A stretch of 64,000 nt of DNA from an uncultured Prevotellaceae bacterium. GTDB taxonomy: Bacteria > Bacteroidota > Bacteroidia > Bacteroidales > Bacteroidaceae. Numbering within the stretch: the stretch's first letter is position 1; the number at the start of each line of letters is the position of its first letter. The notes below the pieces were generated by a model. It was given only the letters and a program-made list of their open reading frames with translations. It had not been told where the DNA came from and did no database searches. This document shows positions 2,303 through 61,306 of this stretch, piece after piece. The stretch covers positions 1 through 64,000 of the forward strand of contig CAMIYC010000003.1 of the NCBI GenBank assembly GCA_946402905.1, written 5' to 3'. The position numbers were made by a program, and so were the translations under genes.

Positions 2303-2426
2303 GTGACAAGTTGACAAGTTGACAAGTTGACAAGTTGCTTGCTCCACTCTATTCGCGCTCCCCTCCTTCGGAGGGGTTGGGGGAGGTTTTTGGGGAGGTT
2401 TTTGGGGAGGTTTTTGGGGAGGTTTT
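2303..2426. repeat. Composite intercistronic repeat (8-bp array + GC hairpin + 12-bp array)
   Basis: Read on the minus strand, four 12-bp units (AAAACCTCCCCA) lead into a perfect 7-bp stem CCCCTCC/GGAGGGG, then a spacer with GAATAGAGTGGAGCAAGC, then four TTGTCAAC octamers ending six bases before the heptosyltransferase start. The DUF4254 stop codon lies inside the spacer. The same composite occurs at 16965-17104 and 61165-61306. Confidence 0.85.
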
Positions 2427-6038: not shown

Positions 6039-6068
6039 CCCCATCTGTCTTTTCATCAGCTTGTCCAC

Positions 6069-6130
6069 TCGTCAACTTGTCACTTAAAGAATCAACTCGT
6101 CAACTTGTCAACTCGTCAACTTGTCAACTA
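6069..6130. repeat. 8-bp tandem array (GTCAACTY)
   Basis: About seven degenerate CAACTTGT/CAACTCGT octamers fill the gap after rnc. They are the octamer part of the composite elements at 2303, 16965 and 61165, here without the GC hairpin and 12-bp part. The array runs in the same orientation relative to transcription as in the composites. Confidence 0.8.
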
Positions 6131-10558: not shown

Positions 10559-12397
10559 ATGTCAGTCAGCAAGAAATGCTGGATACTGCTCCTCGCATGT
10601 ATCCTCCTCGTCATTCCCTTCCTGGGCACTTACGACTACAACACCAAAGGAGAACCGCGGGAGTCGCTCGTAGCTCTCAACATGCTCGAGTCGGGCAACT
10701 GGATCCTGCCGCGCAACAGCGTCGGAGAGATGGCCTACAAGCCTCCTTTCTTCCACTGGGCCGTGGCAGCCACTTCGGCCGTGGCCGGCGAGGTGAATGA
10801 GTTCACCTCACGCATGCCTTCGGCCGTGGCTTTCATCCTGCTCACCGTGCTCACCTACCTCTTCTTCACAAGACGGAGCAAGGAGAGCACCGCCTTGCTC
10901 ACGGCTGCCATCGTGTTCACCACATACGAGCTACACCGCCAGGCCTTCAACTGCCGGGTCGACATGCTGCTCACCTTTTTTATCGTGGCGGCTATGTACG
11001 GACTCTATCGCTGGTGGGAGAAAGGGATGAGAAGCCTGCCTCTGACAGCCATCCTCATGATGAGCCTCGGCACCCTCACCAAAGGGCCCATCGGTTCACT
11101 CCTGCCCTGCCTCGTCATGGGGGTGTTTATGGTTTTTCAGAGTTCTCGGAGTACTCAGAGTAATCTGAATTCTCAGAATAATCAGAGTAATCTGAATTCT
11201 CAGAATAATCAGAGTAATCAGAGTAATCAGAGTAATCAGAGTAATCAGAATTCTCAGAGCACCCTCATCAAGAGATTCCTGAAAGCATTCGGCTGGATGG
11301 CTCTCATCGGCACTCTCTCACTCCTCCTGCCCGCCCTCTGGTATTATGCCGCCTGGAGACAGTCGGGCGACGAGTTCATCACGCTGATGATGGAGGAGAA
11401 CGTGGGCCGCATGACCAACACCATGAGCTATCAAGTGCATGAGGGCGCATGGTATATGAACCTGGTGTATGTGGTCTCAGGACTGCTGCCATGGACGTTG
11501 CTGCTGCTGTTCTCGCTCTTCAGCCTGAGCCGCAAAGACCTCAGGTCGCTGCCACACCGACTGTCGCAATGGAGCCCGCTCACACGATATGCCGCCACGG
11601 CAGTGGTGGTCACACTCGTCTTTTTCACCATACCCGATTGCAAACGCAGCGTATACCTCATGCCGCTCTACCCGTTTCTGACCTATCTAATCGCTCGATA
11701 CATCGAGCGTCTGACCGGGAGCAGGCCACGCGCGGTCGAAGTATATGGCAGCGTGCTGTCTGTCTTGGGATTGCTCGTGGCGGTGGTGTTTGTCGCCCTG
11801 CACTTCATCAGCGTGCCCTCCGGTCTGTTCCACGGCAGGAATGCCTACGACAGTGCTGAGATGATCAGCAACCTCTCGGCTGTCAATGGTTTCATCCCCT
11901 GGTTTGCCATGGGGCTGCTGATTGCTGGATGCATCTACTGGTGGCGGCTGAAGAGAAGTGTGCGCTCATGCAATAACCGCCTGTACATGACTGTGGTGCT
12001 CACCCTGGCACTCTATCTGTGCTTCGACGCCACGCTGAAGCCCGCCATACTCAATGCCAAGTCGGTGAAGCATATCGCACGGCAGATAGAGGCCATCGTG
12101 CCCACGGAGCGTGGAAAGCTCTACGAGTATATCGAAGAGGGTGTGCAGGCCAAAGGCGACCCCGTGCATTACTACGAACTCAATTTCTACCTGCACGACC
12201 GCATCGGCAACTTCCATACCCAGCGCCCGGTGCAAGGCTACCTGCTCATCGGCGAAAAAGACGCCAGCCTGCGCCTCCAGGATTTCCGGCAGCAAGGCTA
12301 TCGCATGAAGCACCTGTACGCCTCGGGGCAGGAACCGGTCTCCAAACAGATCCTCCACCTCTATCGCTTCGAAAAAAGTGAAGAAGCACAGAAGTGA
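10559..12397 (+). CDS. ArnT/PMT-like integral membrane glycosyltransferase with in-frame 9-bp repeat insert
   Basis: A 612-residue multi-spanning protein of the ArnT/dolichyl-phosphate-mannose mannosyltransferase superfamily, which transfers a sugar from a polyprenyl-phosphate donor on the periplasmic side. The early periplasmic loop carries the family motif region YNTKGEPRESLVALNMLESG with the acidic and basic residues expected at the active site, followed by YKPPFFHW. About eleven hydrophobic segments are visible. Residues 194-235 are 14 three-residue units (QSN, QNN, LNS types) encoded by a 9-bp tandem array at 11138-11263, in codon phase, inserted between two membrane segments. The lipid A modification role of ArnT is only one possibility; acceptor and donor are unknown. 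Confidence 0.85.
   Translation: MSVSKKCWILLLACILLVIPFLGTYDYNTKGEPRESLVALNMLESGNWILPRNSVGEMAYKPPFFHWAVAATSAVAGEVNEFTSRMPSAVAFILLTVLTYLFFTRRSKESTALLTAAIVFTTYELHRQAFNCRVDMLLTFFIVAAMYGLYRWWEKGMRSLPLTAILMMSLGTLTKGPIGSLLPCLVMGVFMVFQSSRSTQSNLNSQNNQSNLNSQNNQSNQSNQSNQSNQNSQSTLIKRFLKAFGWMALIGTLSLLLPALWYYAAWRQSGDEFITLMMEENVGRMTNTMSYQVHEGAWYMNLVYVVSGLLPWTLLLLFSLFSLSRKDLRSLPHRLSQWSPLTRYAATAVVVTLVFFTIPDCKRSVYLMPLYPFLTYLIARYIERLTGSRPRAVEVYGSVLSVLGLLVAVVFVALHFISVPSGLFHGRNAYDSAEMISNLSAVNGFIPWFAMGLLIAGCIYWWRLKRSVRSCNNRLYMTVVLTLALYLCFDATLKPAILNAKSVKHIARQIEAIVPTERGKLYEYIEEGVQAKGDPVHYYELNFYLHDRIGNFHTQRPVQGYLLIGEKDASLRLQDFRQQGYRMKHLYASGQEPVSKQILHLYRFEKSEEAQK
11138..11263. repeat. In-frame 9-bp tandem array inside the ArnT-like gene
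   Basis: Fourteen 9-bp units (CAGAGTAAT, CAGAATAAT, CTGAATTCT variants) start exactly on codon 194. The same unit type (CAGARTACT) forms the intergenic array at 42775-42828. Four adjacent identical CAGAGTAAT units suggest recent expansion. Confidence 0.92.
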
Positions 12398-16375: not shown

Positions 16376-17016
16376 AAATCGTATTCGCTACCAACAACGC
16401 ACACAAACTCTCCGAGATACGCCAGATACTCGGCACAAGCGTCGAGATACTCTCACTGGCTGACATCGGATGCCATGACGACATACCCGAGACAGCCGAC
16501 ACCCTCGAGGGCAACGCCTTGCAGAAGGCTGAGTATATCTACAACCACTATCACATCAGCTGCTTCGCCGACGACACCGGGCTCGAGGTCGACGCACTCG
16601 GCGGTGCCCCGGGAGTATTCTCAGCACGATACGCCGGAGGCGAAGGGCACGACAGCCAGGCCAATATGCGGAAATTACTCCACGAATTAGGAGAAAATAA
16701 CAATCGAAAGGCAAGATTCCGCACCGTCATTGCGTTATTGTTAGTAAAGGAGGGCGACGAAACAGAGGAAACGCTCGTACGCCGGCAGTTTGAGGGCATC
16801 GCACCCGGCTCTATCATCCGCGAGCAGCGCGGCACAGCCGGATTCGGCTACGACCCCATCTTCCTGCCTGACGGATACGATAAGACGTTCGCCGAATTGG
16901 GAAATGACATCAAAAACCAGATATCCCACCGCGCCCAAGCCGTGCAAAAGCTGGCAGAGTATTTAACCTCCCCAAAAACCTCCCCCAGCCCCTCCAAAGG
17001 AGGGGAGACCGAATAG
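16372..17016 (+). CDS. rdgB: dITP/XTP pyrophosphatase
   Basis: A 214-residue Ham1/RdgB-type nucleoside triphosphate pyrophosphatase that removes non-canonical purine nucleotides such as dITP and XTP. The start ATG at 16372 overlaps the YitT stop. Family motifs are [16 protein letters not shown] at residues 4-19, [20 protein letters not shown] with the metal-binding Asp residues near residues 64-82, and [23 protein letters not shown] near residues 150-172. The normal domain ends near AEYL; the last 18 residues ([16 protein letters not shown]) come from the composite repeat that starts at 16965. The same tail type is appended to DUF4254. Confidence 0.95.
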
Positions 17017-17104
17017 AGTGGAGCAAGCAACTCGTCAACTCGTCAACTTGTCAACTCGTCAACTCGTCAACTTGTCAACTTGTCAACTCGTCAACTTGTC
17101 ACTT
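16965..17104. repeat. Composite intercistronic repeat (12-bp array + GC hairpin + 8-bp array)
   Basis: Two CCTCCCCAAAAA-type units are followed by a perfect CCCCTCC-AAA-GGAGGGG hairpin, the spacer ACCGAATAGAGTGGAGCAAG with the rdgB stop inside, then about nine GTCAACTY octamers ending a few bases before the PorZ-like start at 17111. Architecture and orientation relative to transcription match 2303-2426 and 61165-61306. Confidence 0.88.
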
Positions 17105-17110
17105 AAAAAA

Positions 17111-19396
17111 ATGAGAAAAATCATCCTCTCCACACTGCTGCTCATCATCGGAGCCATCCACGCCCTGGCTGCCCCCATCGGCTCATGGTGCGTCTTCCCG
17201 GCCTATAGCGACATCACAGAGATTGAGCCAGCCGGCAAAATGGTCTATGTACTGAGCAGCAAAGGGCTTTTCTCATACAACACACAAGACCAGAGCATCG
17301 ACACCTACGACAAGATCAACGCACTCAGCGATGTCAACATACAACACATCGCCTACTGCAAGGCGGCCCGACGGCTGGTAATCGTCTACGAAGACCAAAA
17401 CATCGACTTGCTCGACGACCAAGGGGGCGTGGTCAACATCTCCGACTACTACAACAAATCGATGACCGCCGACAAGACCGTCAACGAATTGAAAATCATC
17501 GGTTCCGACGCTTATCTCTCCACCAACTTCGGCGTGCTGCGCGTCAACGTCGCCGATGCGGAGATCAGCGCCACCTACAACCTGGGAAGGAAAGTCTATT
17601 CCGCGGCCATCGCCGACCGTCAGCTATACGCTGCCACCTCGGAGGGCATCCTCAGAGGCGACATGAGCGTCAACCTGCTCGACAAAGGCAACTGGACGCT
17701 CGACTCCCCACTCATCATCGACCATCTATTCCTGCTCAAAGGCAGCCTCATGGCTCTCAACAACGGAGCCATCTACCTGAAAGAGGGAGACCAGTGGACC
17801 AAACGCTATGACCGGCATTATCATTTCTGCCAGCTCAGCGGCGAAAAACTCATCGTAGGACAATACCGCAACGTGTGGATACTCGACTCTCCGAAAGACC
17901 TGAAAACCATCCCGCACGACAGCTACGACGTGAAAGCATTCGTCTACGACCCCGACAACGACTGCTACTGGAGCCATGACGAGAACATGCGGCTCTGCTC
18001 GCTGCAGCTCGACGGCAACGACATCGTGCCGATACTCACCAATATCGCGCCCGACGGACCAAAATACAACTACTTCGGATTCATGCGCTATGCCAACAAC
18101 CAGCTCTACAGCTGCGGAGGTGGATGGGACTCTTTCGCCGTACTCACACGCAAGGCCACCGTACAGACGTATCGCGACGGCGAGTGGACCATATACCAAG
18201 ACGACTTCGCCGACCAGTTGGAATGCCGCTTGGAAGACATGCTATGCCTCGACTACGACCCGGCCAACCCGCAACACGTATTCGTGGGCGCACGAAACGG
18301 ACTCTATGAATATCTCGACGGAAAATTTGAAAAATACTACGGACCCAAAAACAGCCTGCTGGAATACGCCCTCGACGACGAGTCGCCCAACTACGTCCTC
18401 ACCACGGGCGTGAAATACGACCGGGCCGGCAACCTGTGGTGCCTCAACAGCCAGGCTAAGACGGCATCGATACTGCAGATCGCCCCCGACGGCACATGTA
18501 CCTCACATCACACACAAGTGCTCATGGACGACAACAACCGCAGCCTGGGCAACCTGAAATGCCTCATCCTCGACAGCCGCGGATACCTGTGGTTTGTCAA
18601 CAACCACTGGGCCCTGCCCTCCTTCTATTGCTACGACCCGGCCACTGACGCCATCAACTACTACCAGACCTTTGTCAACGAAGACGGCACCACGCTCAAA
18701 GTGACCGGCGTGAGATGTGTGGCCGAAGACAGAGACGGCAATATATGGGTAGGCACCAATATCGGACCGCTGATGCTGCCCGCCGCAAGCCTCAGCGAGG
18801 GTTCCAATGCCGTACTCACACAGGTGAAGGTGCCGCGCAACGACGGCACCAACTATGCCGACTACCTGCTCAGCGGTGTCGACGTCACTTGCATGGCCGT
18901 CGACGGAGCCGGGCGCAAGTGGTTTGGCACCAACGGCAACGGCATCTACCTCATCAGCGAGGACAACATGACCCAGGTGCAGCACTTCCTGCCCTCCAAC
19001 AGCGGTCTGCTCTCCAACAACATCGAGTCGATCACCATCAACGACACCACCGGCGAGGTGTATATCGGCACCGACAATGGCCTATGCTCCTATATGAGCG
19101 ACGCCAGTGCCACCAACGACAGCATGACCAAGGACAATGTATATGCCTATCCCAACCCCGTGCAGCCCGACTATACCGGCCTGATCACCGTCACCGGCCT
19201 CTCCTTTGACGCCGACGTGAAGATTGTCACCACAAGCGGCACACTGGTCAATGAGGGCAGAAGCAACGGAGGGTCGTACACCTGGGACGGATGCGACCTC
19301 AATGGGCGGCGCGTGGCATCAGGGGTATATATGGTCGAGACCGCCACCTCAGAAGGCAAGAAAGGCACCGTCTGCAAGATAGCCGTCGTCAGATAG
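17111..19396 (+). CDS. PorZ-like beta-propeller protein of the type IX secretion system
   Basis: A 761-residue exported protein. The start at 17111 gives a clear signal peptide (RKIILSTLLLIIGAIHALA); the longer reading from 17018 is just translated octamer repeats. Residues 24-330 resemble the first PorZ propeller (GSWCVFPAYSDITEIEPAGK, GLFSYNTQDQSI, DNGLCSY-type blades), and later blades resemble two-component regulator propellers (DRDGNIWVGTNIGPL, DGAGRKWFGTNGNGIYL). The last 80 residues (AYPNPVQPDYTGLITVTG to GVYMVE) are a C-terminal sorting-type domain. In Porphyromonas PorZ sits on the surface and helps attach A-LPS to cargo. Which of the paralogous propeller families it belongs to needs an alignment. 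Confidence 0.78.
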   Translation: MRKIILSTLLLIIGAIHALAAPIGSWCVFPAYSDITEIEPAGKMVYVLSSKGLFSYNTQDQSIDTYDKINALSDVNIQHIAYCKAARRLVIVYEDQNIDLLDDQGGVVNISDYYNKSMTADKTVNELKIIGSDAYLSTNFGVLRVNVADAEISATYNLGRKVYSAAIADRQLYAATSEGILRGDMSVNLLDKGNWTLDSPLIIDHLFLLKGSLMALNNGAIYLKEGDQWTKRYDRHYHFCQLSGEKLIVGQYRNVWILDSPKDLKTIPHDSYDVKAFVYDPDNDCYWSHDENMRLCSLQLDGNDIVPILTNIAPDGPKYNYFGFMRYANNQLYSCGGGWDSFAVLTRKATVQTYRDGEWTIYQDDFADQLECRLEDMLCLDYDPANPQHVFVGARNGLYEYLDGKFEKYYGPKNSLLEYALDDESPNYVLTTGVKYDRAGNLWCLNSQAKTASILQIAPDGTCTSHHTQVLMDDNNRSLGNLKCLILDSRGYLWFVNNHWALPSFYCYDPATDAINYYQTFVNEDGTTLKVTGVRCVAEDRDGNIWVGTNIGPLMLPAASLSEGSNAVLTQVKVPRNDGTNYADYLLSGVDVTCMAVDGAGRKWFGTNGNGIYLISEDNMTQVQHFLPSNSGLLSNNIESITINDTTGEVYIGTDNGLCSYMSDASATNDSMTKDNVYAYPNPVQPDYTGLITVTGLSFDADVKIVTTSGTLVNEGRSNGGSYTWDGCDLNGRRVASGVYMVETATSEGKKGTVCKIAVVR

Positions 19397-25853: not shown

Positions 25854-25928
25854 CATCCCCTCCCCTTCGGGAGGGACAGAGAGGGATTCAAATCCCCTCC
25901 CCTTTGGGGAGGGATAGGGAGGGGTTTA
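25854..25928. repeat. Two tandem GC-rich hairpin repeats
   Basis: Two copies of a roughly 35-bp unit of the type ATCCCCTCCCCTTYGGGAGG followed by GAYAGRGAGGG. Each folds on itself (CCCTCCC/GGGAGGG). The array overlaps the sulfhydrylase stop (25926-25928) and fills the gap before inositol-phosphate synthase, again between genes of one direction. The GC hairpin resembles the middle part of the composite repeats. Confidence 0.75.
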
Positions 25929-27209
25929 AATACGCTCCAAAGCCTGGCGGATGTCGTCGATGATGTCGTCGGCATCCTCTATGCCTACGGAGAGACGGAT
26001 CAGGTCGGGTGCCACGCCGGCCTCACGCAACTGCTCGTCGGAGAGCTGGCGATGGGTGTGGCTGGCGGGATGGAGCACACAAGTGCGCGCATCGGCCACA
26101 TGGGTCACGATATTGATCATCTCAAGAGCGTCCATAAACTGGATGGCTGTCTCGCGTGTGCCCTTCAGGCCGAAGGCGATCACGCCGCAGGAGCCCTGTG
26201 GCAGGTATTTCTGCCCGAGGGCATAGTGGGGGTCGTCTTTCAGTCCGCTGTAGTGCACCCATGCCACGCGTGGGTCGTCGTGCAGAAACTCTGCCACCCG
26301 CTGCGCATTGGCGCAATGCTGGCGCATCCTCAAGTGCAGGGTCTGCAGCCCCATGTTCAGGAGGAACGAGTTCTGGGGGGCGGGGATACTGCCCAGGTCG
26401 CGCATCAGCTGCGCCACGAGCTTGGTGGTGTAGCCCATCTTGCCGAAAGCCTTCACGTAGGTGAGTCCGTGATAGGAATCGTCGGGGGTGGTCAGGCCGG
26501 GGTATTTGTCGGCATGTGCCATCCAGTCAAACTGTCCGCTGTCTACCACGGCTCCGCCCACCTGGGTGGCCAGCCCGTCCATGTATTTGGTGGTGGAATG
26601 GGTCACGATATCGGCACCCCATTCAAAGGGACGGCAGTTGACCGGTGTAGCAAAGGTGTTGTCCACGATCAGGGGCACTCCGTTGCGGTGGGCGATGCGG
26701 GCAAACCGCTCGATGTCGAGCACGGCACATCCTGGATTGGAGATGGTCTCGCCGAAAAGCACCTTGGTGTTGGGGCGGAATGCCTGCTGGATCTCCTCGT
26801 CGCTGGCTTCGGGCGATACAAAGGTGCAGTCGATGCCGAGTTTCCTGAGTGTCACGCCGAAAAGGTTGAACGTGCCGCCATAGATCTCGTTGGATGCCAC
26901 GATATGGTCGCCGGCCTCGCAGATATTGAAGATAGCATAGAAATTGGCAGCCTGACCGCTGGAGGTGAGCACACAGCCCACGCCCCCCTCCAGAGCAGCG
27001 ATCTTAGCGGCCACAGCGTCGTTGGTGGGGTTTTGCAGACGGGTGTAGAAATAGCCCTCCTTCTTGAGGTCGAAGAGCTGAGCCATCTCGTCAGAGTCGT
27101 CATATTTGAAGGTAGTACTCTGGATAATCGGCAACTCTATCGGCTCGCCATTTTTAGCATGATATCCTGCATGCACACAAAGTGAGGATATCTTAAGATT
27201 TTTTTTCAT
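25926..27209 (-). CDS. metY: O-acetylhomoserine sulfhydrylase (aminocarboxypropyltransferase)
   Basis: A 427-residue PLP enzyme of the Cys/Met metabolism family. It makes homocysteine from O-acetylhomoserine and sulfide. Motifs include FYTRLQNPTNDAVAAKIAALE near residue 52, SSGQAANFYAIFNICEAGDH near residue 88, and the PLP-binding lysine in DIVTHSTTKYMDGLATQVGG near residue 205. The length of about 430 and the LIVDNTFATPVNCRPFEWGAD segment distinguish it from shorter cystathionine gamma-synthases. On the minus strand upstream, TTACTTTGC near 27267-27275 is a weak promoter candidate. Cysteine synthase activity cannot be excluded. Confidence 0.94.
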   Translation of the reverse strand: MKKNLKISSLCVHAGYHAKNGEPIELPIIQSTTFKYDDSDEMAQLFDLKKEGYFYTRLQNPTNDAVAAKIAALEGGVGCVLTSSGQAANFYAIFNICEAGDHIVASNEIYGGTFNLFGVTLRKLGIDCTFVSPEASDEEIQQAFRPNTKVLFGETISNPGCAVLDIERFARIAHRNGVPLIVDNTFATPVNCRPFEWGADIVTHSTTKYMDGLATQVGGAVVDSGQFDWMAHADKYPGLTTPDDSYHGLTYVKAFGKMGYTTKLVAQLMRDLGSIPAPQNSFLLNMGLQTLHLRMRQHCANAQRVAEFLHDDPRVAWVHYSGLKDDPHYALGQKYLPQGSCGVIAFGLKGTRETAIQFMDALEMINIVTHVADARTCVLHPASHTHRQLSDEQLREAGVAPDLIRLSVGIEDADDIIDDIRQALERI

Positions 27210-33086: not shown

Positions 33087-33155
33087 TTCACGTGAATTAG
33101 TCGTGAATTGCTCGTGGTTTTTTCACGTGAATTAGCCGTGAATTATTCGTGAATT
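33087..33155. repeat. 11-bp repeat array, left arm
   Basis: Degenerate 11-bp units of the type GTGAATTAGTC/GTGAATTATTC with two copies of the palindrome TTCACGTGAA (33087-33096, 33122-33131). They run in the opposite direction to the array at 33876-34006, so the two arrays bracket the GxxExxY gene as inverted repeats. Confidence 0.75.
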
Positions 33156-33860: not shown

Positions 33861-33875
33861 AGTTAATACACTCAA

Positions 33876-34006
33876 ATAATTCAAGAACAATTCACGAATA
33901 ATTCAAGAACAATTCAAGAACAATTCACGAATAATTCACGTGAAAAACTCATTACCAGTCAATCCACGAACAATTCACGTGAAAAAAACCGGTCAATTCA
34001 CGTGAA
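33876..34006. repeat. 11-bp repeat array, right arm
   Basis: Units of the type AATTCAAGAAC and AATTCACGAAT, followed by three TTCACGTGAA palindromes (33935-33944, 33974-33983, 33997-34006). The array runs into the last codons and stop of the Omp28-like gene (33993-33995). Confidence 0.85.
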
Positions 34007-42774: not shown

Positions 42775-45971
<3,197 letters not shown>

Positions 45972-55519: not shown

Positions 55520-55535
55520 TTGACAAAAAAGGCAC

Positions 55536-55598
55536 AAAAAAAAGGACTCCGCCGAGTCCCTACCTTGTTAACCTTAAATCTAATACTATGAAAAACAC
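55536..55598 (-). ncRNA. Putative small RNA with own promoter and terminator
   Basis: On the minus strand a -7 box TATCTTTG (55610-55603) followed by C is succeeded by about 55-60 nt and a terminator hairpin GGACTC-GGCG-GAGTCC (55559-55544) with eight U residues (55543-55536). There is no open frame of useful length. The unit is separated by 330 bp and repeat hairpins from the heparinase-like start, so it is unlikely to be just its leader. The exact 5' end is estimated from the -7 box. Confidence 0.6.
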
Positions 55599-60737: not shown

Positions 60738-61136
60738 TCACAAGCTCTGGAATTCAGCGTAGATCTTCGAGGCGATAGCCTTCATCTCCTCATCCTCCAA
60801 TTTCAGTTTCGGATTGGAGAAAAGCATGTCCTTCTCACTCTGCATAGGGATGAGATGGATATGCGCATGAGGTACTTCCAGGCCGAGCACGGCCTGACCC
60901 ACCTTCACACAGGGGAAAGCCCGCTTGATGGCGATGGCCACTTTCTTGGCAAACACCTGAAATGCGGCAATCTCCTCATCGTCCATGTCAAAAATGTAGT
61001 CCACCTCCCGACGTGGGATGACCAGCGTGTGGCCTTTCACCATCGGGTTGATATCAAGGAAAGCGTAAAAGCGATCGCTCTCCGCACATTTGTAGCTGGG
61101 TATCTCGCCAGCGGCGATTTTTGAGAATATACTCAT
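60738..61136 (-). CDS. HIT family hydrolase
   Basis: A 132-residue histidine-triad nucleotide-binding protein. The triad is VPHAHIHLIPM near residue 100, and the N-terminal region is FSKIAAGEIPSYKCAE with the DINPMVKGHTLVIP stretch. Such enzymes hydrolyse nucleoside phosphoramidates. The start complementary to 61134-61136 is chosen because the longer upstream frame only translates octamer repeats. It follows greA, with the composite repeat 61165-61306 between. Confidence 0.95.
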   Translation of the reverse strand: MSIFSKIAAGEIPSYKCAESDRFYAFLDINPMVKGHTLVIPRREVDYIFDMDDEEIAAFQVFAKKVAIAIKRAFPCVKVGQAVLGLEVPHAHIHLIPMQSEKDMLFSNPKLKLEDEEMKAIASKIYAEFQSL

Positions 61137-61164
61137 ATTATTTAGTTGATAAGTTGATACTTCT

Positions 61165-61306
61165 AAGTGACAAGTTGACAAGTTGACGAGTTGACAAGTT
61201 GCTTGTTCCACTCTATTCGGTCTCCCCTCCTTCGGAGGGGCTGGGGGAGGTTATTCCTTCGGAGGGGCTGGGGGAGGTCTTTGGGGGAGGTCTTTGGGGG
61301 AGGTCG
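61165..61306. repeat. Composite intercistronic repeat (12-bp type + GC hairpins + 8-bp array)
   Basis: Read on the minus strand: GACCTCCCCCAAA units next to the greA stop, two CCCCTCC-GAA-GGAGGGG-type hairpins, the ACCGAATAGAGTGGAACAAG spacer, then four to five TTGTCAAC-type octamers leading towards the HIT start. Same design and orientation as 2303-2426 and 16965-17104. Confidence 0.88.

Follow-up and report, generated by a model that had tools for sequence, protein, structure and literature searches.

Cyanobacterial STRR heptamers are dispersed, short, intergenic tandem arrays with lineage-specific units, and the octamer arrays described here are similar to them but have a different unit and a different host. 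Direct repeats of the heptamer TAACTGA are described from Beggiatoaceae, some Cyanobacteria and five Bacteroidetes, and in the accessible portions of that report 147 of 170 sets in BOGUAY, with two to six copies, lie toward a start codon (MacGregor, 2015; PMC4679880). The corresponding portions of a second report assign a strand rule to GGGNATC heptamers in Xanthomonas and Nostoc, by which, irrespective of ORF direction, the first 50 bp past a stop codon carry the G strand in sense and the last 50 bp ahead of a start codon carry it in antisense, and describe these repeats as under-represented between divergent ORFs (Rehm, 2015; PMC4692102). The BrickBuilt MITE of Porphyromonas gingivalis, which carries a minisatellite, is likewise an intergenic tandem-repeat element in Bacteroidales; as far as the available text describes it, it differs from the arrays reported here in its 23-nt units, its leader and tail inverted-repeat ends, its distance of 49-591 nt from genes and its promoter activity (PMC4596501). 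As for the host phylum, the accessible account is that Bacteroidetes have no Shine-Dalgarno sites and that initiation is favored by A-rich, unstructured start regions (PMC6847099). The first-pass annotation knew of no description of an element like those below, which was too strong a statement given that TAACTGA arrays before starts (PMC4679880) and GGGNATC arrays with the same strand rule (PMC4692102) appear in the accessible parts of published reports.

The window, by which we mean the whole 64,000-nucleotide stretch of DNA analyzed, contains three composite elements, at 2303-2426 (minus strand), 16965-17104 (plus strand) and 61165-61306 (minus strand), that share a common order of parts and a common orientation relative to their flanking genes. 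Their parts, together with one octamer array that has no hairpin, are as follows.

2380..2426, minus strand: composite 1, 12-bp C-rich units (ACCTCCCCAAAA), stop-side; the upstream ORF (DUF4254 protein) reads through
2360..2376, minus strand: composite 1, CCCCTCC/GGAGGGG hairpin
2338..2354, minus strand: composite 1, spacer GAATAGAGTGGAGCAAG; the TAG within it is the upstream ORF stop codon
2303..2337, minus strand: composite 1, octamer array of 4 units, then TAAAAA and the ATG at 2296 (glycosyltransferase family 9 gene)
16965..16988, plus strand: composite 2, C-rich units; the upstream Ham1-family ORF reads through
16989..17005, plus strand: composite 2, CCCCTCC/GGAGGGG hairpin
17011..17027, plus strand: composite 2, spacer GAATAGAGTGGAGCAAG; the TAG at 17014-17016 is the upstream ORF stop codon
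17028..17104, plus strand: composite 2, octamer array of about 9 units
17105..17110, plus strand: composite 2, A-run abutting the ATG at 17111 (PorZ-type gene)
61241..61306, minus strand: composite 3, C-rich units and a partial second hairpin, 3' of the greA stop codon
61224..61240, minus strand: composite 3, CCCCTCC/GGAGGGG hairpin
61202..61218, minus strand: composite 3, spacer GAATAGAGTGGAACAAG
61144..61201, minus strand: composite 3, octamer array, a break and a further short run, preceding the ATG at 61136 (HIT-domain gene)
6056..6129, plus strand: octamer array with no hairpin; an RNase III gene lies on one side and on the other a GH3-family gene whose called start is 114 nt away

Every part is present beyond what shuffled sequence yields: six matches to the C-rich units (shuffle mean 0.01), three to the hairpin CCCCTCCNNNGGAGGGG, all of them exact (shuffle mean 0.33 at up to two mismatches), 23 to the octamers (shuffle mean 0.27) and, for the spacer GAATAGAGTGGARCAAG, three sites with at most one mismatch, or four matches at up to three mismatches (shuffle mean 0.10). 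The order of C-rich units, hairpin, spacer and octamers that the first-pass annotation had described is thereby confirmed. The A-rich run before the ATG in two elements is CACTTAAAAAA-ATG at 17111 and CACTAAAAA-ATG at 2296. In composite 3 the ATG at 61136 is preceded by more octamers and CAACTAAATAAT. The elements had also been placed between the stop codon of one gene and the start of the next. Their location in gaps stands, but in 2303-2426 and 16965-17104 the upstream ORF crosses the C-rich units and the hairpin and stops inside the element, at the TAG of GAATAG. Read in frame, the C-rich repeats at 16965-17016 and 2349-2426 form T/S/P-rich, repeat-encoded C-terminal tails of the upstream proteins; the Ham1-family protein has such a tail because its ORF runs across the C-rich part to this TAG. 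The orthologous gap in a congener (locus L160; protein identity 62.5% upstream and 50% downstream) holds a two-armed octamer array, with an antisense and a sense arm, and there the stop codon of the Ham1 gene is supplied by the antisense arm.

A scan of the window against Rfam 15 at the gathering score returned no match over the elements and two matches elsewhere, a tRNA and an sRNA of the Bacteroidetes family FopS (RF04319) at 55533-55598 on the minus strand (72 bits against a gathering score of 56). Another hairpin repeat, of CCCCTCC/GGGAGG type, occurs as two tandem 38-bp copies at 25855-25938, and further tandem arrays with periods of 9, 11, 18, 22 and 27 lie at 11137-11259, 33091-33155, 33875-33940 and 42777-42825, the last of these flanked by two minus-strand genes.

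Each composite is where two independent dispersed families meet, a C-rich hairpin repeat and CAACTYGT octamer arrays; the composites are not one element. The genome to which the window belongs (G000; 3.66 Mb in 117 contigs) contains 24 exact sites of the hairpin core (27 with one mismatch allowed) and 175 exact matches on both strands to an octamer 18-mer, the backward control giving none, so that the octamer array family is far larger than the composite. The exact junction with the GAATAGAGTGG spacer is found in four places in this genome, three in the window and the fourth at G000:C64, and a looser junction without the GAATAG spacer occurs on contig C2 (locus L076). A single composite element, as originally proposed, is ruled out because the hairpin and octamer parts also occur apart.

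The 24 exact hairpin sites comprise 17 sense and one antisense in tandem gaps, two in convergent gaps, two near a contig edge behind a sense gene and two inside ORFs. Among copies behind a sense gene, 19 of 21 lie within 70 nt of the gene end (in four the hairpin is inside the called ORF), which makes the C-rich hairpin a stop-side component in this genome; an octamer array follows it at five of the 24 sites. Its palindrome is similar in size to REP and the GTAG- and CGTC-tagged palindromes, described in the accessible text as dispersed extragenic hairpins (PMC3733652); unlike these, the octamer family is a tandem array and not a tagged palindrome. At four loci of this genome (L083, L087, L088 and L089) a repeated GTAGGGACGCGRCGTGCCGCGT-like palindrome, REP-like by eye and diverged in the L087 copy, stands beside octamer arrays.

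For the octamer family we examined 45 arrays of this genome, the window included; the genome holds at least that many, later contigs having been reached through one unit variant. Genes were called with a small caller trained on the window, which misplaces some starts (for example at L092, at L119 and for the gene starting at 2296), and distances to starts were corrected by allowing in-frame ATGs. The arrays comprise 32 in tandem gaps in sense, four in tandem gaps in antisense, five in convergent gaps and four without a called neighbor, and none of the 45 was placed in a divergent gap. In tandem gaps the excess of sense over antisense is highly significant (binomial p = 1.9e-6). Sense arrays begin a median of 46 nt after the stop codon and end a median of 9 nt before the start codon, 29 of 32 ending within 25 nt of it (25 of 32 by raw gene calls), and 24 of the 32 are closer to the start than to the stop (p = 0.003). 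The suggestion in the first-pass annotation of a bias tied to transcription and translation is borne out by these placements. Array-led starts are moreover rich in A at each position from -8 to -3 (74-93% in 27 starts, against 26-53% in 43 array-free tandem starts at the same loci). TAACTGA sets are alike in being short tandem arrays that lie forward and directly before starts, and also, in the accessible text, in having presumably essential genes among those downstream and a variable orientation in other species; the unit here is unlike theirs in being the octamer CAACTYGT and not a heptamer, and the portions of that report available describe no A-run junction (PMC4679880).

These placements bear on two explanations. 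The main rival to the one that we favor is that the arrays are functionless repeats that arise and grow by polymerase slippage in gaps, selection just clearing promoters and the structure-prone strand before starts. We think this a substantial possibility, though one that we would on balance bet against. Slippage alone does not explain why sense arrays lie against the start, nor why an A-run ends them. A second possibility is that the array is a multivalent binding site for an RNA- or DNA-binding protein that jointly controls the downstream genes. A near-constant repeat unit in dozens of leaders fits such a role, and RNA-binding candidates have been proposed for TAACTGA arrays in the accessible part of that study (PMC4679880). 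When ten array-led genes were scanned against NCBIfam, however, no common theme emerged and several housekeeping functions appeared; the six above the curated cut-off were DnaJ, release factor 2, triose-phosphate isomerase, methionyl-tRNA formyltransferase, class II fructose-bisphosphate aldolase and ObgE. Since, in addition, polarity stays while units differ between genomes, we consider a shared binding protein very unlikely.

Of 60 genomes searched, 10 contain the octamer 18-mer (this one included). All 10 belong to the 36 genomes from the genus of the present one; the other 24, from other families of the order, have no match. Named records that contain a 21-mer of this sequence include, among the matches listed, Prevotella, Bacteroides caecigallinarum, Phocaeicola, Mediterranea, a Dysgonamonadaceae MAG, a soil Bacteroidetes MAG and others. 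Cultured species with arrays include Prevotella pectinovora P4-76 (L244) and Bacteroides caecigallinarum (L212, L219 and L220). Two IMG/VR stretches matched the array search, and viral spread of the arrays was rejected. We assembled 175 arrays from outside this genome, 43 from genomes and 132 from named or viral records, after dropping five duplicates and with two viral-contig loci retained in the named set. Tandem gaps hold 53 of these in sense and 43 in antisense, 19 lie in convergent and 11 in divergent gaps, 11 are inside ORFs and the rest have no neighbor; the gene caller performed poorly for two genomes (G085 and G010), which contribute many unplaced arrays, and one genome (G069) alone has seven sense and 12 antisense arrays. 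Fixed orientation as a general rule is ruled out by these relatives. The earlier claim that the elements always have one orientation thus holds for the three composites, becomes a strong bias (32 to four) in this genome and breaks down in other genomes; the random orientation or convergent placement that had been named as evidence against it is partly what we see.

What holds across genomes is that position depends on strand, with sense arrays at start codons and antisense arrays at stop codons. Outside this genome, a start codon lies no more than 25 nt away for 30 of 53 sense arrays but only three of 43 antisense ones (Fisher p = 2.5e-7). The upstream stop is that close for 40 of the 43 antisense arrays, in part for a mechanical reason, since the antisense arm has a TGA in each of its frames. 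With the same qualification, antisense arms against the stop are also something that slippage alone does not explain. The octamer arrays follow the strand and position rule of GGGNATC, the G strand being sense after stops and antisense before starts; unlike GGGNATC, for which the accessible text describes G-tracts, quadruplexes and a preference for four units, CAACTYGT has no G-tract, and neither of its strands has two adjacent G (PMC4692102). The antisense arms seen here have a parallel in one Bacteroidetes genome, where a reversed TAACTGA set follows immediately on a stop codon (PMC4679880, accessible portion).

We surveyed gaps of 20-400 bp with both neighbors called. Among 102 tandem gaps with arrays, 56 have the sense arm only, 26 the antisense arm only and 20 have both, and all 20 two-armed gaps run from the stop through antisense arm, core and sense arm to the start. 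The full form can be written stop-GTTGACRAG...-core-...CAACTYGTCAACT-AAAAA-ATG, of which this genome mostly has the start-side arm alone. In the portions available to us, the TAACTGA report gives no two-armed stop-to-start order (PMC4679880), and the GGGNATC report mentions inverted repeats and gives no order rule (PMC4692102). In the literature searched (few subscription papers among it) we found no description of this octamer family of Bacteroidales, of its A-ended junction with the start or of its two-arm order; arrays before starts and the strand rule were already known.

The inverted arms raise the possibility of a mobile element, the two-armed form being a small inverted-repeat unit that, once inserted between genes, goes on to lose one of its arms. 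The recurring ends TTTTTAGTTGAC / GTCAACTAAAAA of the arms at some loci, the patchy copy number across the 60 genomes and the strong folding of two-armed gaps described below are in keeping with mobility. Terminal inverted repeats of the MITE type, however, are not found on every copy: a partner arm lies to the left of the array in one of 45 cases in this genome, nine of 43 in other genomes and 35 of 132 in named and viral records, and to the right in none, none and one, respectively. We measured the gap between greA and the HIT-domain gene, the site of composite 3, in 19 of 29 relatives, leaving out nine that lie on the other strand (a 411-nt value for L177 is an artifact of an other-strand match). 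It varies in length (5-226 nt) and in filler, contains a CAACTYGT array in none of the 19 and tends to look filled rather than cleanly empty, in several with a different short repeat that extends up to the ATG. On this evidence we regard a mobile element as improbable. The presence of other short repeats in this gap in several congeners instead favors slippage, as do units that differ from genome to genome and the occurrence of one arm, the other or both in orthologous gaps. Such orthologous array-bearing gaps number three pairs between this genome and others (33 gaps against 76) and six among the others, one of which (L224/L242) is nearly identical downstream (99.7%). Inheritance of array-bearing gaps was not adopted, as these pairs are not clearly above chance on the rough assumption of about a thousand conserved adjacent pairs.

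Repeats of other units were examined in the same genus. Four units of any YAAC-initial 8-mer or 7-mer occur in 72 and 68 of 100 genomes, respectively, with genome-specific units; the backward control pattern is frequent too, which weakens YAAC as a unique core. The 63 YAAC arrays sampled (up to one locus per genome for each of two patterns) include 15 sense and 14 antisense in tandem gaps, so there is no global orientation across units. Eleven of the 63 lie within a called ORF in sense (L344-L346, L352, L354-L356, L358, L360, L364 and L365) and would thus be translated. Among periodic 7/8-bp segments of any unit in tandem gaps, G exceeds C in the stop-side half by 54 to 28 and C exceeds G in the start-side half by 69 to 11, and with the octamer family removed the corresponding counts are 27 to 10 and 20 to 8 (Fisher p = 5e-4). 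Two-armed arrays of other units are antisense-sense in 12 cases and sense-antisense in two (p = 0.013); as two genomes supply most of the 12, the arm order of other units is not absolute and the cases are not independent.

To relate these strand preferences to the message we turned to predicted folding. For 27 start-adjacent arrays of this genome the sense strand folds at -0.055 kcal per nt and the antisense strand at -0.248. Reversing the array takes the unpaired fraction of the start region from 0.68 (native) to 0.52, a drop seen in 24 of 27 (p = 8e-6), and the 43 array-free starts stand at 0.55, below the native array-led ones (p = 8e-5). The sense strand is thus predicted to be nearly unstructured, and a reversed array would be expected to cover the start. 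Neither in silico deletion (0.69, p = 0.39) nor shuffling (0.65, p = 0.11) of the 27 arrays changed start openness significantly, which also speaks for slippage; the folds therefore show that the right strand does no harm, and not that it helps. For other units (43 segments), the start-side mRNA strand has less structure than its opposite in 21 of the 25 untied cases. At the stop, the mRNA strand is not more structured than its opposite, either for other units (22 of 39) or for the octamer family (34 of 68), so that a structured strand at the stop is unsupported as a rule; the other units show just a bias of G over C there (45 to 18 of 66).

The last possibility is a translational-coupling switch, in which the arms pair and hide the start until a ribosome at the upstream stop opens the stem, a mechanism close to the coupling that the first-pass annotation had suggested. 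We folded 18 two-armed gaps of 40-330 bp, with duplicates and long sequences dropped, and they do fold strongly (mean z -6.4). Yet their starts are already open (0.64; one-armed sense gaps, 0.68; p = 0.39), and overall the start opened no further when 15 or 30 nt past the stop were covered (p = 0.87 and 0.55); in two of the 18, L265 and one gap of L234, the start clearly opens once the bases after the stop are covered. A start that is open and unaffected by such covering argues against a coupling switch, a stop-side arm is present in only one of 45 cases in this genome, and we find the switch scarcely credible.

The explanation that we favor, at slightly less than even confidence, is that the array serves as an unstructured, A-ended mRNA leader, predicted to keep the start codon accessible to ribosomes that do without Shine-Dalgarno pairing, the composite being its junction with a stop-side hairpin repeat. 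By analogy with what the accessible text says of initiation in this phylum (PMC6847099), the A-run may give a context that favors it. Selection on start sites is the best-supported mechanism, and we infer that the strand that keeps the mRNA open is retained before the start. Arrays would grow by slippage and would spread or arise repeatedly; start-site selection would then remove the wrong strand before start codons and keep the right one. At the stop, an arm or hairpin would terminate or protect the message of the upstream gene, and the predicted open leader would let ribosomes begin without Shine-Dalgarno pairing. A broader proposal is that the gaps between Bacteroidales genes carry a two-slot module, filled in each genome by its own set of interchangeable 7-8-bp arrays. 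In the stop slot, a G-bearing arm or hairpin would close the upstream message; in the start slot, a C/A-rich, A-ended arm would take the place of Shine-Dalgarno pairing as a landing leader for ribosomes. Xanthomonas and cyanobacteria would have reached the same strand grammar independently. In this general form we think the proposal rather unlikely.

In Bacteroidetes, a phylum without Shine-Dalgarno sites (PMC6847099), it is an open question what marks start sites beyond a few adenines. A family that puts a nearly unstructured, A-ended leader ahead of dozens of genes, under a strand rule shared by unrelated repeat units, would lend itself to learning how leader openness sets initiation. It would also bring under one rule several "orphan" heptamer repeats described separately in cyanobacteria, Xanthomonas and Beggiatoaceae.
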